Shown here one piece after another: positions 31,690 to 57,140 of a DNA stretch of 64,000 nt; positions within the stretch are counted from its first letter, which is position 1; each line of letters starts with the position of its first letter. Both the position numbers and the translations under genes were made by a program. The notes beneath the pieces are model-generated. The model had not been told where the DNA came from, made no database searches, and saw nothing but the letters and a program-made list of their open reading frames with translations. Source of the DNA: Candidatus Latescibacterota bacterium (GTDB taxonomy: Bacteria; JAAXHH01); NCBI GenBank assembly GCA_022823465.1, contig JAJEHX010000005.1:62001-126000 (forward strand), in the 5' to 3' direction.

Positions 31690-32733
31690 ATGGGTAACAT
31701 GGAACACGCACCAGATCCGGAACCGGCGCCGCTTCCCTCGAAGGACACGCTTCCCGGTCACAAGGAAGGGGACCAGACGGGCCAAACCCGCCAGGCTGAC
31801 CAGGCGGGCCAGACGGGCCAGGCGGACCAGCGCATACAATGGCGCCGCCCCGCCATCCTGTTCGCGTGTACCGTCCTGACCACCGTTGTCGCCGGAGCGA
31901 TCATGGAGCACCCCACGGTCCCGCCGCTGGTGGTGCTGCTCACCCTGTTCGGCATCCCGTCGCTTCTCCTGGACGGACTGCCCTTTTCCCTCTCGGTACT
32001 TGGCATTCTGATGGCCCACGAAATGGGCCATTATCTCTATGCCCGGTGGTACGGCGTCCGTACGTCCCTGCCCCATTTCATTCCTTCGCCCCTGTTTTTC
32101 ATTTCGCCGAATCCGGGCACCTTCGGCGCCGTCATCGTCACGAAAGCGCCTTATCCGCACAGGCAGGCCCTGATGGATATAGGTGCGGCCGGTCCCATTG
32201 CCGGTTTCATCGTGGCAGTGCCGATCATGGCCTACAGTCTCGTAGGAGCCCGGGTCGATCTCATCCCTGCGAACGGCGGGCTTTACCTGGGCGAGCCCCT
32301 GGTGTTTCAAGCCCTTGCCTATCTGATCCACGGTCCGCTGCCCGAGAATTACACCATTTACCTGGATTCCGTGGGTCTGGCAGCCTGGTTCGGCTGTCTG
32401 GTCACCATGCTCAACCTGCTGCCCGTGGGACAACTGGACGGCGGCCACATTCTCTACGCCTTCACAGGAGGCGCACAAAGTGGACGCCGGCTCCAGAGAA
32501 ACCTGACGATCACGAGCTTCCTGGCGCTGGCCGTACTGGGCCTGTACTCGCCCGGATGGTGGGTGTTCGGGGCGCTTCTGCTGTTGATGGGCAGGTTCAG
32601 CGGTTTTCGGCATCCTGCGCCGATAGACGATGCCGCGCCGCTGCCCGGGCACAGTAAGTGGCTTGGCTGGATCGCGGTCCTGGTCTTTGTCCAGACCTGC
32701 ATGCCGGTACCGATTTCCTTTACGGGTCCGTAG
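31690..32733 (+). CDS. Site-2 protease-family membrane metalloprotease (M50)
   Basis: A 347-residue intramembrane zinc metalloprotease. The zinc site is HEMGH at the cytoplasmic-membrane interface (in ILMAHEMGHYLYARWYG), and the third ligand lies in NLLPVGQLDGGH. About six hydrophobic segments surround them. The first ~50 residues are a low-complexity Gln/Thr/Gly/Asp tract (TGQTRQADQAGQTGQADQ) encoded by short DNA repeats at about 31770-31830. Such proteases cut membrane-bound anti-sigma factors or signal peptides; the substrate here is unknown. It resembles the variant lacking a PDZ domain. Confidence 0.9.
   Translation: MGNMEHAPDPEPAPLPSKDTLPGHKEGDQTGQTRQADQAGQTGQADQRIQWRRPAILFACTVLTTVVAGAIMEHPTVPPLVVLLTLFGIPSLLLDGLPFSLSVLGILMAHEMGHYLYARWYGVRTSLPHFIPSPLFFISPNPGTFGAVIVTKAPYPHRQALMDIGAAGPIAGFIVAVPIMAYSLVGARVDLIPANGGLYLGEPLVFQALAYLIHGPLPENYTIYLDSVGLAAWFGCLVTMLNLLPVGQLDGGHILYAFTGGAQSGRRLQRNLTITSFLALAVLGLYSPGWWVFGALLLLMGRFSGFRHPAPIDDAAPLPGHSKWLGWIAVLVFVQTCMPVPISFTGP
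31770..31830. repeat. Imperfect 9-12-bp coding repeats in the protease N-terminus
   Basis: Units close to GACCAGRCGGGCCAR recur four to five times and encode alternating Gln, Thr/Ala, Gly and Asp residues. They form a low-complexity linker ahead of the first membrane segment. Confidence 0.6.
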
Positions 32734-35202: not shown

Positions 35203-36249
35203 CTAGTTCGTCTGTTCGGGGAACGGCGCGCGTATGTCGTAGCGGCCGTGAATCTCCACGGGCAAGTCCCCCTCCTCTACCATCAGGTCAAGTGGATTTT
35301 CACCCGTCAGCAGCGGGAGTTCGACCGCGTCACGGATGCGCGCGGACTCGTAGATCGCCATCATGAGTTCCATAGTCAGACGAGCTGTTTCACCCTCGCT
35401 GCGGTGCCCTTCGATGCGGCCGTCCAGCCAGGATATGAACTCATCGTACTGGTCGGCCTCTACCGGAGGCGGCGTGATGGTCTGCCAATCGCTGGAATGA
35501 CGGTTCAGCAAGACCAGGGTACTGTCCGGTCCGCGTTTTAAAATCCCTTCCGTCCCGTATATGACGTCTCCCTGCAGTCCTGGATCGGGCAGATCGCTCT
35601 CGTAGGTACCCCTTATCCCGCCTTCGAAGGCAATGATGGCCGCGCACCGGTCCTCGCACCTCACCCGGCGTTCCCACCGGTCCGTCCTGCGCGTCACCTG
35701 GCCGATCACCCACACCGGCCTGGGGTCGCCCAGCACGTACATCATTTCGTCGAGCTCGTGGGTTCCCCGGTTGAGCAGGCCGTGGGCGTCTCTGCGCAGC
35801 ATGGCCGTGGGCGTCCCGATCGCGCCCTCCCTCACGAGACGGCGTGCTTCCACGTTCTGTGGGGTGAACCGGCGCTGGTGGCCGATGGCGAGCTTGACGC
35901 CGTGTTGTGCACAGGATTCCAGCATGCGGTCGGCTTCGCCGAGGCTGGACGCCATCGGCTTTTCTCCCAGGATGCCCTTTGCGCCCGCTTCCGCGGCTTT
36001 CACGGTGATCTCGGCGCGGACGTTCTGCCAGGTGGTGATACTGACGATGTCACAGCCTTCTTCCGATAACATGCGCTCGTAATCCGTATAGGGTTTCGCA
36101 CCGAATTCGTCGGCCAGTTTACGGGCGTTTCGCTCGTCTACGTCGGCGACCGCGGCCACGTCGGTCTGAGTTTTCTGCGTCCAGTGCCGCGCGTGTGAAC
36201 CGCCCATGCCGCCACAACCTATGATGCCGACTCGATATGATTCGGACAT
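35203..36249 (-). CDS. Gfo/Idh/MocA-family oxidoreductase
   Basis: A 348-residue NAD(P)-dependent dehydrogenase. The Rossmann motif is YRVGIIGCGGMGGSHARHW at the N-terminus, and the catalytic-lysine motif is GILGEKPMASSLGEAD. The C-terminal domain reads GTHELDEMMYVLGDPRPVWV. AAGGAG precedes the ATG at 36249 by a few bases. A promoter candidate lies at 36312-36340, and the gene appears to be co-transcribed with rsmI, three bases downstream. The substrate is unknown and the pairing with an rRNA methylase is probably not functional. Confidence 0.91.
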   Translation of the reverse strand: MSESYRVGIIGCGGMGGSHARHWTQKTQTDVAAVADVDERNARKLADEFGAKPYTDYERMLSEEGCDIVSITTWQNVRAEITVKAAEAGAKGILGEKPMASSLGEADRMLESCAQHGVKLAIGHQRRFTPQNVEARRLVREGAIGTPTAMLRRDAHGLLNRGTHELDEMMYVLGDPRPVWVIGQVTRRTDRWERRVRCEDRCAAIIAFEGGIRGTYESDLPDPGLQGDVIYGTEGILKRGPDSTLVLLNRHSSDWQTITPPPVEADQYDEFISWLDGRIEGHRSEGETARLTMELMMAIYESARIRDAVELPLLTGENPLDLMVEEGDLPVEIHGRYDIRAPFPEQTN

Positions 36250-36419: not shown

Positions 36420-36447
36420 AGAGCAGGTCAACCGGGAGAGGATAAAC

Positions 36448-37953
36448 ATGGATTATAACGGTCTGCAGGTTGCGACGCTCGATGATTCGCTGGGGAAAGC
36501 CATTGTCGCGCGCGGCGGAAAACCCTTAGTCTCCGGGGCTGACGATCTGGAAGGCTTGGATACTTTTCTCGACCGCCTGGCCAGGGAAGACATCGCCGTG
36601 TTGTTACTGACGGAACCCGGGCATATCCGGGCCCTGTTCGACCGCGCGGCCGCAACCGGCCGTCTCGAGGCCCTGCTGGATTCCGTCAGGCAGGTGGCCG
36701 TTGGCTCGGCGGACCCCGCGTGCACGGATATCTGGAGAAGCCATCATCTCTCGGTCGACTTCGAGCCCGACGGGACTGGAGGAGAAGCGCTCGTAGCGGG
36801 CATGGCGCGCCTGGCCGGCTACCTGGTCAACAAGAAGCGCACCGCCGTGGACCGCGGCGTGGACACCTCATACTGGCAACGTATCGACATGCGTTGGCAT
36901 TTCGAGAGCGATCCATACGGTACCCGGGGCGAGTCCGCCTTCCTCAGAGCCTGCCGCCGTGAACCGACTGAGTATACGCCCATATGGCTTTTGCGCCAGG
37001 CCGGCCGGTACCAGCGGGCTTACCGGGAGCTCAAATCCGACCTGGATTTCCTGGACATGTGCAAGACTCCGGAACTCACGGCCGAGATCACCTTGATGGC
37101 CGTGGAACGCCTCGGTGTGGACGCCGCCATACTCTTCGCGGACATCCTTCCCCTGCTGCAACCGATGGGACTTCACCTGGAATACGTCGCCGGCCAGGGA
37201 CCGGTCATCCGCAATCCGATTCGTTCGGCCGGGGCCGTGGATCAACTCGAAGAAGCAGGACCGGAGTCCCAGCACTTCGTCTACGAGGCCATCCGCATGG
37301 CGCTGCCCGCGCTTCCGCCTCATATCCCGCTCATCGGTTTTTCCGGCGCCCCCTTCACCCTCGCCGCCTATGCCATCGAGGGACAGAGTTCCAGGGACTT
37401 CAGGCACCTCAAGACCTTCATGTATACCGATCCGGGGGCCTGGCACGCCTTCATGGCGAAGCTGGCCCGGGCCGTCACGGCGTACCTCAACGAACAGATC
37501 GAGGCAGGCGTTCATGCCGTGCAGCTCTTCGACAGCTGGGTCGGCTGCCTGTCGCCCGACGATTACCGGACTTACGTTCTGCCTCACACGGGGTACGTCT
37601 TTTCGCATCTGCGTCCCGGCGTGCCCTCGATCCATTTCGGGGTCGGGACCGGTTCCCTGCTCGGACTGATGCGTGAAGCGGGCGGGGACGTCATCGGACT
37701 GGACTGGCGCGTGGACCTGGCCGATGCGTGGCAGGGCCTGGAATATGACGTGGCCGTGCAGGGGAACCTGGATCCGCTGATCCTCTTCGCCTCGCCCGAT
37801 GTGATCCGCGAAAGCGCGGCGGCCGTCCTGCACAAGGCCGAGGGGCGGCCCGGACACATCTTCAACCTTGGTCACGGCATACTGCCCGGCACGCCGGAGG
37901 ACCACGTCATCGCGCTCGTGGACGCCGTGCATGAACTGGGAAGCGCCCGATGA
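36448..37953 (+). CDS. hemE: Uroporphyrinogen decarboxylase with an N-terminal HemD-like half domain
   Basis: A 501-residue protein, ~150 longer than usual HemE. Residues ~161-501 are a full uroporphyrinogen decarboxylase, which converts uroporphyrinogen III to coproporphyrinogen III. They contain IWLLRQAGRYQRAYREL (RQAGRY at 183-188), the catalytic Asp232 in ILFADILPLLQPMG, GFSGAPFTLAAYAIEG and QLFDSWVG. Residues ~5-125 look like the first half of uroporphyrinogen-III synthase (GLQVATLDDSLGKAIVARGG, AVLLLTEPGHIRALFDRAA, VAVGSADPACTDI). The second HemD half is missing. ATG 36448 has GGGAGAGG seven bases upstream. hemY overlaps its stop by four bases. Confidence 0.9.
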   Translation: MDYNGLQVATLDDSLGKAIVARGGKPLVSGADDLEGLDTFLDRLAREDIAVLLLTEPGHIRALFDRAAATGRLEALLDSVRQVAVGSADPACTDIWRSHHLSVDFEPDGTGGEALVAGMARLAGYLVNKKRTAVDRGVDTSYWQRIDMRWHFESDPYGTRGESAFLRACRREPTEYTPIWLLRQAGRYQRAYRELKSDLDFLDMCKTPELTAEITLMAVERLGVDAAILFADILPLLQPMGLHLEYVAGQGPVIRNPIRSAGAVDQLEEAGPESQHFVYEAIRMALPALPPHIPLIGFSGAPFTLAAYAIEGQSSRDFRHLKTFMYTDPGAWHAFMAKLARAVTAYLNEQIEAGVHAVQLFDSWVGCLSPDDYRTYVLPHTGYVFSHLRPGVPSIHFGVGTGSLLGLMREAGGDVIGLDWRVDLADAWQGLEYDVAVQGNLDPLILFASPDVIRESAAAVLHKAEGRPGHIFNLGHGILPGTPEDHVIALVDAVHELGSAR

Positions 37954-39353
37954 AGGTCGTCGTGGTCGGCGGGGGCATAGCGGGGTTGAGTGCCGCCCAC
38001 CGGCTGACGGAATCGAAGCGCCCCGGCCTGCAAGTGACGCTGCTTGAGGGAGCGGATCGATTCGGCGGGACGATACGCACTATCGAACTCGGCGGATGCC
38101 TGGTCGAGTTGGGACCGGATTCCTTCCTCTCCACCAAGCCCTGGCTGACGGACCTGGCCGGACGGCTGGGCGTTGCAGACCGGATTATCCCCACCGCAAG
38201 TACCCATCGCGGCGCCCACGTGGTCCATCGCGGCAGACTCCATCCGCTGCCAGACGGGTTCCTGATGATGGCGCCCACTCGCCTTTGGCCCATGGTGACC
38301 ACTTCCCTCTTTTCGTGGACGGGCAAGTTCCGGAGCGCCCTGGATCTGGTACTCCCGCGAGGCTGCGAGTCCGGCGATGAGAGTCTCGGCGCCTTCGTTC
38401 GAAGGCGGTTCGGCGGCGAGGTTTTGGATCGGGTCGTACAGCCGCTCATCGGTGGGATCTATGCCGGAGATCCGGACACCCTCAGCCTGAAGGCCACGAT
38501 CCCGCGTTTCCTCGAGATGGAGGCCCGTCACCGCAGTGTCATCAAAGCCATGGTTGCGCAGCGGCGCGCGGCCGCGAAGAGAGGAAACGGTTCTTCCTCC
38601 GTAAGCGGCGCGCGTTACGGAGAACTGTTCTCCTTCGACCGGGGCATGGCAACCATCGTGGAGGCCCTGCTGGCACATCTGCCGCCGGGGGTGGTGCAGA
38701 CCCACACGGAAGTCGTAGGCCTGCACCGCGAAGGGAACTTCTGGCGACTTGCCTGCGGCAATGGACGACAATTCGAGGCCGACGCCGTCATACTCGCCCT
38801 GCCGTCCCGAAGGGCCGCGGCACTGCTCCACGGCACCGATGTGGAGCTCGCCAACGAACTGGCGGCCATCCCCCACGCGTCATCGGCCGTCATGAACCTC
38901 GTGTACCGGCGTTCGGAGGTGCCTCATCCCATGGATTGCTTCGGATTCGTAGTACCCGCCATCGAGCGTCGCAACATCATGGCCTGCACCTTCAGCAGCG
39001 TCAAGTTTGTGGATCGGGCGCCGGAGGACCTTGTCCTGTTGCGTGTTTTTATTGGTGGCGCTCTTCAGCGGGAATTGCTCGAGTCGGACGATGGCGCACT
39101 GCAGCAGATGGCAGGCGAAGAGTTGCGGGATCTCATGGGCATCGAGGCCGAGCCCCTGCACTCCGTACTTTCACGCTACCCGGACGCCATGCCCCAGTAC
39201 CTGGTCGGCCATTCAGGGCGCGTAGAACGGATCGAATCGATGCTGGAGCAGTATCCGCGCCTGGCCCTGGCCGGCAACGCCTACCGCGGCGTGGGCCTGC
39301 CGGATTGCGTGCATTCCGGGGAACAGGCGGCGGAGCGGGTTCTGGGGGGATAA
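37950..39353 (+). CDS. hemY: Protoporphyrinogen/coproporphyrinogen oxidase HemY
   Basis: A 467-residue FAD-dependent oxidase that aromatises a porphyrinogen (protoporphyrinogen IX or coproporphyrinogen III) late in heme synthesis, using oxygen. The N-terminal dinucleotide motif is VVVGGGIAGLSAAHRL. GPDSFLSTKPW, VVQPLIGGIYAGDPDTLSLKA and the C-terminal LALAGNAYRGVGLPDCVHSG match the HemY/CgoX family. It starts within the hemE stop (ATGA overlap), so the two are translationally coupled. The sequence alone does not say which porphyrinogen is used. Confidence 0.93.
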   Translation: MKVVVVGGGIAGLSAAHRLTESKRPGLQVTLLEGADRFGGTIRTIELGGCLVELGPDSFLSTKPWLTDLAGRLGVADRIIPTASTHRGAHVVHRGRLHPLPDGFLMMAPTRLWPMVTTSLFSWTGKFRSALDLVLPRGCESGDESLGAFVRRRFGGEVLDRVVQPLIGGIYAGDPDTLSLKATIPRFLEMEARHRSVIKAMVAQRRAAAKRGNGSSSVSGARYGELFSFDRGMATIVEALLAHLPPGVVQTHTEVVGLHREGNFWRLACGNGRQFEADAVILALPSRRAAALLHGTDVELANELAAIPHASSAVMNLVYRRSEVPHPMDCFGFVVPAIERRNIMACTFSSVKFVDRAPEDLVLLRVFIGGALQRELLESDDGALQQMAGEELRDLMGIEAEPLHSVLSRYPDAMPQYLVGHSGRVERIESMLEQYPRLALAGNAYRGVGLPDCVHSGEQAAERVLGG

Positions 39354-54921: not shown

Positions 54922-57140
54922 ATCGCGCGACGATCGGGCTGCTGGTCAGGCACGAATTGCGCATGCTCCTGCGTGACCGGCGCACCGTGGTGTTGAGTAT
55001 CCTCCTGCCGCTCGTCGTTCTGCCGTTGATCCTCCTCGGCGCAAAATTCATGAACGAATGGCGCAGGGAGCAACTGGACGCGACGACGTATCGCTATGCC
55101 GTGACCGGCGCTTACGCCGACTCGGTGCGGGCCCTCATCGGAAGGGGAGTGCTGCTCGCGGCAGAGGAGACGGAGGAAGGCCGGCAGCCGGCGTCATTCC
55201 TCGAGGTGGAGGCGGTAAGACCCGATACCAGCCTGTCCGCCGGCGACCTGGATTTCTACCTGGAGACCCTTACAGGCGCGGAGGCCGATTCCCTCGATCT
55301 CGCGCGCGCCGAAGCCGATACGTCCGACGTGGCCGTTGAGGGAGGGGTCGCGGAGACGGACCGCGCCGATGAAGAACGGGCCGACGTGACCGTGGCGGAC
55401 GCGCGGTATCCGGGCGTGCCCGTGGTCACGGTCTACTTTCGCGCCAACCGGGACGAGTCCAGGACGGGCAGCGGCCGGCTGGTGGATCTGTTGGTGGACG
55501 CGAGGAAACAGGACCGTGCCGACGCACTGCGCATACGGGGTTTCGCGGTGGACCCGGAGGAGTCCATCAAGCTGTCGAGGGTGGACGTGGCCACGCCGGA
55601 ACAGGCCGCGGGGTTCTATTTCGGACGCATCCTGCCGCTTTTTCTCGTATTCCTCACCCTTACCGGCGCTTCGGTTGCGGCCATGGACAGTGTCGCGGGG
55701 GAAAAGGAACGGGGCTCTCTTGAAACCCTCCTGACCACTTCAGTCAGCCGGTTCGAGATCATTGCCGCCAAGCAGTTGACGATCCTGTCCGTCGCCCTGT
55801 TCATCACCCTGGCCCAGGCCGGAAACCTGTTCGTCTACCTTGCCCTCGGATTCATCGAATTCTCCGGAGAACTGGAAATCGACGTGTCGCCCGGCGCCGT
55901 GCTGGTGTTGCTCGCCCTCTACGTCCCCGTGGCCGTCGTGATTTCGTCCCTGCTCCTCCTGGTCTCGGCCTACGCGAAGACTTACCGGGAGACGCAGCTG
56001 TACCTGCTGCCCGTTTTCCTCGGTCTCATGATCCTGACGGCGGCGGGCCTGCTTCCGGGGGTTTCACTGCGCTCGCTGATCGCCCTCGTTCCCGTCGCGA
56101 ACGTCAGCGTGGCCGTGCGGGAGATCATGGTGGGGCACTACGACATCCCGATGCTTCTGGTAACTTGCGCGGCAATGCTCGCCGCCGCCTTCATGCTGCT
56201 CAGACTGTCGTCCCGCATGCTGGCCATGGAGCGGCTCATCACCACGCAGGATACGGACGAGGCGGACCTGGAAGGAGGCGCCGCCCTGTTTCCGAAGAGA
56301 GTGCTCCTGTGGTTCGTCGGCATGTGGGCCATAATCGTCATCGCGCCCTCGAACGTGGACGCATTGACCCGCCTCGAGGGGCAGTGGGCCTTCAACATGT
56401 TCGTGATCTTCTTCGCCGGCTCGCTCCTGATGATCCGGGTTCACCGGCTCGACTGGCGAAAGGCCCTGGCGATCCGGCCGGTACGGCCCCAGATCTGGCT
56501 GGCGGTGCTGCTCCTCGTACCTTCGACCCTGATGACCGGAATGTTCGTCGTGGAGCTTTCCAGCGTATTCCTTCCCTTCCCGGAGGAAATGCTGGAGAAA
56601 TTCGCCAGCCAGCTCCTTCCGGACGACTTCCCGGTCTGGAAGATCATGCTCATGCTGGCGCTCACGCCTGGGGTCGTGGAGGAAATGGCCTTCCGGGGAC
56701 TGCTGCTTCACGGACTTCACCGCCGGCTGAGACCGCTGGCGCTCATCCTGGTCGTCGGTTTGATATTCGGATTGTTCCACCAGGCCCTGTTCCGGATCAT
56801 TCCCACGGCTTATCTGGGCATGGTACTGACCACCGTGGCCGTGCTCTCAGGTTCGATATTCCCGTGCATCCTGCTCCATGCCGGCAACAACGCCTTCGCG
56901 TTCCTCCTCTACAGGTATGGCGTGGATATCGAGAACTGGCCCCCGGAGCTGCTTCTCCTGAGCGTCCCCGTTTTCCTTTTCTCGATCTATCTGCTGTATC
57001 GATATCGAACCCCTTACCCCGGTCTGCTGCCCTTCAGGAAACGGTCCCCTGCCGATCATCCCGATCATCCCGGCCAGCCCGATCATCCCGGCCATCCCGG
57101 CCAGCCCGGCCAGCCCAGCCAGTCCGGCGAACGCTTATAG
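54918..57140 (+). CDS. NatB-like ABC permease fused to a CPBP intramembrane protease
   Basis: A 740-residue membrane protein. Residues ~1-430 are a NatB-like permease with a long extracytoplasmic loop (about 50-230), DSVAGEKERGSLETLLTTSVSRFEI and several helices. Residues ~450-700 add a CPBP (CAAX/bacteriocin-processing) domain with EEMAFRGLLLHG, GLIFGLFHQALFR and HAGNNAFAF, the three motif blocks with the expected Glu and His residues. The C-terminus is a low-complexity tail of Asp-His-Pro-Gly and Gln-Pro-Gly repeats. It overlaps the ATPase gene by four bases. Confidence 0.88.
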   Translation: MNRATIGLLVRHELRMLLRDRRTVVLSILLPLVVLPLILLGAKFMNEWRREQLDATTYRYAVTGAYADSVRALIGRGVLLAAEETEEGRQPASFLEVEAVRPDTSLSAGDLDFYLETLTGAEADSLDLARAEADTSDVAVEGGVAETDRADEERADVTVADARYPGVPVVTVYFRANRDESRTGSGRLVDLLVDARKQDRADALRIRGFAVDPEESIKLSRVDVATPEQAAGFYFGRILPLFLVFLTLTGASVAAMDSVAGEKERGSLETLLTTSVSRFEIIAAKQLTILSVALFITLAQAGNLFVYLALGFIEFSGELEIDVSPGAVLVLLALYVPVAVVISSLLLLVSAYAKTYRETQLYLLPVFLGLMILTAAGLLPGVSLRSLIALVPVANVSVAVREIMVGHYDIPMLLVTCAAMLAAAFMLLRLSSRMLAMERLITTQDTDEADLEGGAALFPKRVLLWFVGMWAIIVIAPSNVDALTRLEGQWAFNMFVIFFAGSLLMIRVHRLDWRKALAIRPVRPQIWLAVLLLVPSTLMTGMFVVELSSVFLPFPEEMLEKFASQLLPDDFPVWKIMLMLALTPGVVEEMAFRGLLLHGLHRRLRPLALILVVGLIFGLFHQALFRIIPTAYLGMVLTTVAVLSGSIFPCILLHAGNNAFAFLLYRYGVDIENWPPELLLLSVPVFLFSIYLLYRYRTPYPGLLPFRKRSPADHPDHPGQPDHPGHPGQPGQPSQSGERL
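57051..57126. repeat. Imperfect 9-bp tandem repeats at the 3' end of the permease/protease gene
   Basis: About eight units alternating GATCATCCC, GGCCAGCCC and GGCCATCCC encode the Asp-His-Pro, Gly-Gln-Pro and Gly-His-Pro tail. They end about five codons before the stop. Confidence 0.85.

Follow-up and report, generated by a model that had tools for sequence, protein, structure and literature searches.

A uroporphyrinogen decarboxylase with a single HemD-derived lobe, probably retained from an older HemD-HemE fusion

Uroporphyrinogen-III synthase (HemD) consists of two α/β domains that are connected by two antiparallel strands and have the substrate cavity between them (PMC3539698). Fusions of HemD to neighbouring pathway enzymes have been described; CobA-HemD and HemC-HemD are listed in the fusions table of PMC4921024, in which HemD-HemE is not listed. 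We found no description of a HemD-HemE fusion in the literature that we searched, which was mostly the freely accessible part. The gene described here lies in a stretch of 64,000 nucleotides (the window) and resembles CobA-HemD and HemC-HemD in that HemD sequence is joined to a neighbouring pathway enzyme. It differs from them in its partner, which is uroporphyrinogen decarboxylase (HemE), and in that CobA-HemD falls in another HemD clade.

Gene layout and the HemE portion

The gene is a single 501-aa reading frame on the forward strand (36448 to 37953), with its ATG at 36448 and its stop codon at 37951–37953. A Shine-Dalgarno-like sequence, GGGAGAGG, is situated six bases before the ATG (36434–36441, forward strand), as the initial annotation had pointed out. 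Because the stop-to-stop frame is 510 aa in four congeners, which leaves only 9 codons ahead of the window ATG, this start codon is supported. The upstream promoter proposed in the same annotation is weak; its elements (TTGCTC-17-TATGAT) score 8/12, below a simple consensus cut-off, and it was absent from the list produced by our promoter scan.

Residues 161–501 and the stop codon (36928–37953, forward strand) correspond to a complete, full-length HemE. TIGR01464 matched with 393.7 bits (E=6e-118) against a curated cut-off of 302.95 and was covered from position 2 to 338 of 338, and the URO-D model (PF01208) matched residues 163–496 with 408.9 bits, in agreement with the complete decarboxylase annotated initially at these residues. 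By the TIGR01464 equivalog criterion the protein is HemE, with predicted decarboxylase activity, and it is the sole match above the cut-off in its own genome. It carries a 160-residue N-terminal extension, which is absent from all 49 of the unfused HemE frames that we examined. The extension had also been recognized initially, and its conservation in relatives and an omega of about 0.2 indicate that it is genuine coding sequence.

The gene is followed by a protoporphyrinogen-oxidase-like FAD enzyme gene (37950–39353, forward strand; Pfam Amino_oxidase and synteny), whose start overlaps the hemE stop codon and which is the same neighbour found in relatives. A divergent Gfo/Idh/MocA-family gene upstream (35203–36249, reverse strand; Pfam and tblastn) provides a synteny marker shared with two of the relatives described below (G015 and G001). 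Elsewhere in the window (31770–31830 and 57052–57128), and in L001 (158–190 and 622–662), we observed short 9-bp tandem arrays such as CCAGGCGGA, CATCCCGGC and GACCAGGCG; some fall inside coding frames, for example where an M50 peptidase begins and at the hemC/cobA-hemD junction.

HemD ancestry of the N-terminal extension

The initial annotation read residues 5–125 as one half of HemD and proposed a HEM4 (PF02602) search as a check. With the window sequence alone the match was sub-threshold (E=0.0056; 16.3 bits for the extension alone and 13.0 bits in the whole protein, against a gathering cut-off of 27.5). Taken alone, the window sequence would thus fail the check that the annotation had set for itself, but intermediate sequences reverse this outcome and carry the homology. 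The corresponding extension of a second genus of the same family (G001) scored 23.6 bits, and that of a genome from another family of the same order (G014) scored 33.7 bits, which is above the cut-off; both matches covered HEM4 positions ~153–231. We also cut 11 full HemD-HemE fusions into an N-terminal β-α unit, a second-lobe segment (133–134 aa) and a C-terminal half, and built a C-lobe profile from the last of these. This profile matched window residues 32–134 (36541–36849, forward strand) with 52.7 bits (E=3e-17). In addition, tblastn with the window extension found the full fusion of a third family of the order (G015) at E=2e-24, 43% over 119 aa, at the same position ahead of HemE and in a syntenic locus. 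The extension thus descends from HemD, a kinship that rests on G014, G001 and the full fusions rather than on a direct Pfam match. That it is another small α/β domain is barely credible: the sub-threshold Pfam score would fit such a domain, as would the lack of relevant hits when PDB sequences were searched with the extension and with its profile, but the C-lobe profile match, the alignment to the syntenic G015 fusion and the G014 score above the cut-off all argue against it.

Residues 1–31 (36448–36540, forward strand) were assigned to the N-terminal β-α unit of HemD by hhalign and pairwise scores. The half-form N-termini (residues 3–31) matched the first β-α unit of the full fusions with an hhalign probability of 92.9% (E=3.7e-7), as compared to 4.1% for the corresponding unit in HemD's second half. 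Pairwise scores likewise favoured the first unit for the sequences of family f1, although the G014 N-terminus showed no preference for it (means of 19.7 for the first and 21.7 for the second unit). An initial MAFFT alignment had put the N-terminus where the second HemD half begins, and this placement was ruled out by the hhalign profile comparison. The second-lobe profile gave only weak scores on the half forms, without a convincing match, and such scores are expected because the HemD lobes are pseudo-symmetric. Thus the N-terminal unit is followed by the C-terminal half with ~134 residues missing in between, and the deletion junction lies near the start of the 36541–36849 segment. The initial proposal of a HemD-derived half module with the other half missing was therefore sound, except that what remains is not one half of the sequence but the N-terminal unit (~3–31) together with the C-terminal half (32–134).

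From the human and Thermus structures, we take these two parts together to constitute one HemD domain. By this known fold, one discontinuous HemD lobe remains and the lobe inserted between the linker strands has been cut out whole. The extension is therefore like HemD (PF02602; Thermus 3d8n and 1wd7) in being homologous to one of its two α/β lobes, and unlike it in having neither the second lobe nor the candidate active-site Tyr, in its altered GP[TVI] motif and in scoring below the Pfam cut-off; against a two-lobe definition of HemD the window protein falls short, with one lobe only. AlphaFold models from an alignment of 7 close relatives had mean pLDDT values of 53.8 (extension) and 42.1 (whole protein). 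Confidence in the whole-protein model was also low on the undoubted HemE barrel, which points to the shallow alignment as the cause. A Foldseek search with the low-confidence model found no significant match; Thermus HemD was at the top with E=0.56, which we did not count as evidence.

Full HemD-HemE fusions and descent

In G015 a complete HemD (HEM4 E=5e-41 over positions 3–230 of 231) is fused to HemE. Upstream of the fusion is the Gfo/Idh/MocA gene, with 69% identity, and the oxidase gene follows downstream. A hemH-like gene (L138, 6030–6974) lies between this fusion and the oxidase gene, and the window has no hemH-like gene there. Among the 384 genomes surveyed, full two-lobed fusions were read directly in ten genomes outside the window's phylum (G165, G240, G369, G072, G046, G303, G356, G227, G086 and G220). 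Follow-up searches in the G356 phylum and in family f193, which belongs to another phylum, recovered the fused HemD module from 39 of 58 genomes of the former, chiefly as frames of ~654 aa, and from most members of the latter; for these genomes, about 40 beyond those read directly, full fusion length was inferred from frame length. Frames of full fusions are about 640–690 aa, as opposed to 501 aa in the window. Many long HemE frames in GC-rich genomes were rejected as fusions since they were merely open upstream and contained no HemD sequence. Half-lobe profile matches were also observed in frames of 282–334 aa (L162 of G495, G503:C16:33309-33626 and G522:C38:4877-5128), which are too short to be fusions; they may be relatives of the fused HemD that stand alone, in a pre-fusion or fission state.

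Of the 11 fusion genomes checked, all except G227 contained another HEM4 match above the cut-off, usually within a frame the size of CobA-HemD. In the HemD tree, a long branch (100/100) separated the fused HemDs from the CobA-HemD-type HemDs of the window's phylum. The genome's own CobA-HemD was accordingly set aside as parent of the extension, which descends instead from a distinct HemD-HemE fusion whose HemD clade stands apart. In the HemE tree all fused forms, the window HemE included, fell in one clade (97) together with two unfused members, and the half forms and the unfused G013 were sister to G015 (99 and 96), a group within which the tree gave G013 and G014 no firm branching order. The window form thus shares with the full fusions of G015, the G356 phylum and others its HemE clade, the order of parts, with HemD-derived sequence directly before HemE in one frame, and a similar linker motif. 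It differs in that the fusions retain both HemD lobes and the Tyr, whereas its HemD domain is incomplete, with one lobe. A single lobe loss within the order, postdating the divergence from G015, is the simplest reading.

The extension was present in 10 of 10 congeners whose contig covers the locus (80–88% identity); G012 was left out of this count because its contig begins inside HemE. It was also present in G001 (49% identity), and the G014 protein, a 506-aa frame, has the same half-lobe design. Three genera from two families thus retain the half-lobe form, and every occurrence that we observed lies within the window's order, where it nests next to full fusions. In G013, from the window's own family, HemE lies at the same locus between rsmI and the oxidase gene (L140, 2635–3756) without the extension, apparently through complete secondary loss of the HemD module. 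The loss of the whole extension indicates that it is dispensable in G013.

Lost synthase chemistry and the role of the retained lobe

One possible active-site Tyr of HemD has been named from mutagenesis (PMC7242693). A Tyr in the motif VPVYxW, at the end of the second-lobe segment, is present in 11 of 11 full fusions and absent from the window protein. Judged by HemD alignments, this is presumably the Tyr that was mutated. Position 56 is E or D in all 13 half forms as compared to S, T or N in all 11 full fusions, and the GP[TVI] motif of the half forms is GPA or lost. With the Tyr lost, GP[TVI] changed and an acidic residue at position 56, synthase activity of the window protein is very unlikely; as the HemD substrate sits in the cleft between two lobes, we draw this conclusion with good confidence. 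A catalytically dead module, one of the options considered initially, is thus probable. The separate full hemD that the initial annotation suggested seeking was found as a complete CobA-HemD elsewhere in the genome (L001), adjoining a hemC-like frame, and this protein is predicted to supply the uroporphyrinogen-III synthase step.

HemE forms homodimers, and HemD is built as an internal pseudo-duplication. These features are what would allow a working HemD with the missing lobe provided in trans or by pairing of the single lobes of the HemE dimer. We regard this as very improbable given the lost Tyr and GP[TVI], the acidic residue gained, the complete CobA-HemD already in the genome, and the finding of no stand-alone second lobe in the window's phylum, which speaks against supply of that lobe from another gene. 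Alternatively, as HemD resembles one lobe duplicated internally, the pair of single lobes in a HemE dimer might come together as a symmetric HemD-like body, a binding cap or docking site above the active sites of HemE, and this could be a return to the presumed single-lobe ancestor; this too is improbable.

Nei-Gojobori omega values for window-congener pairs were 0.16–0.23 for residues 1–160, 0.07–0.12 for the HemE part and 0.03–0.19 for the linker, the loosest segment being residues 1–35 (0.14–0.64). The lobe is under purifying selection, less so than HemE, and constraint on the linker is about as strong as on HemE. This linker (residues 129–160; 36832–36927, forward strand), strongly conserved in alignments as NKKRTAVDxGVDTxYWxRxDMRW, overlaps the end of the C-lobe profile match. 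A form of the motif, KKRTAxxxGVDTxxWxRxxMxW, recurs in some but not all full fusions, namely those of another phylum (L116, L120 and L121), and the linker itself may therefore have its own role.

The explanation that we favour, and consider likely, is that an old fusion of HemD to HemE would have undergone, within the window's order, an in-frame loss of the HemD lobe inserted between the linker strands (~134 residues), leaving a discontinuous HemD lobe tethered to a full, working HemE. With less confidence, we propose from the patterns of constraint that this catalytically dead lobe was retained as a structural module packing on HemE via the conserved linker, affecting stability or dimer geometry, or because a partner docks on its surface; packing through the linker is suggested by constraint on the lobe and by the HemE-like constraint on the linker. 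Several findings count against this explanation: the models had low pLDDT (53.8 and 42.1), so that a closed lobe is left as a prediction, residues 1–35 evolve fast (omega up to 0.64), the extension was wholly lost in G013, and the G014 N-terminus did not prefer the first unit.

The G013 loss at a syntenic locus, the loose constraint on residues 1–35 and the missing catalytic motifs would also fit a slowly decaying remnant, without a role since the lobe deletion, that persists because clean in-frame removal seldom happens or because it has to fold in front of HemE without causing harm. The extension is a remnant by descent, as the initial annotation had allowed, but that description alone is too weak for sequence under purifying selection. 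An omega of ~0.2 across the extension, a linker as constrained as HemE, retention in three genera from two families and the uniformly acidic residue 56 (13/13) argue against decay, although a need only to fold safely could account for part of this. We consider such decay unlikely. Descent from a fusion of two consecutive enzymes, the separate full HemD and the strongly conserved linker would be compatible with a channeling or docking module that recruits CobA-HemD (or HMB synthase) and hands uroporphyrinogen III to HemE. An acidic residue in what was once the cleft loop is ill-suited to polycarboxylate binding, and we consider such a module distinctly unlikely. A retained structural or docking lobe on a working HemE thus remains the explanation that we prefer.

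Several bacterial phyla contain full HemD-HemE fusions, which have their own HemD clade and are usually found alongside the common CobA-HemD; these fusions constitute a natural test of direct handover of uroporphyrinogen III from HemD to HemE. In the window's order, one lobe was removed and the other kept under selection, which makes a non-catalytic role of a HemD lobe testable by simple deletion.
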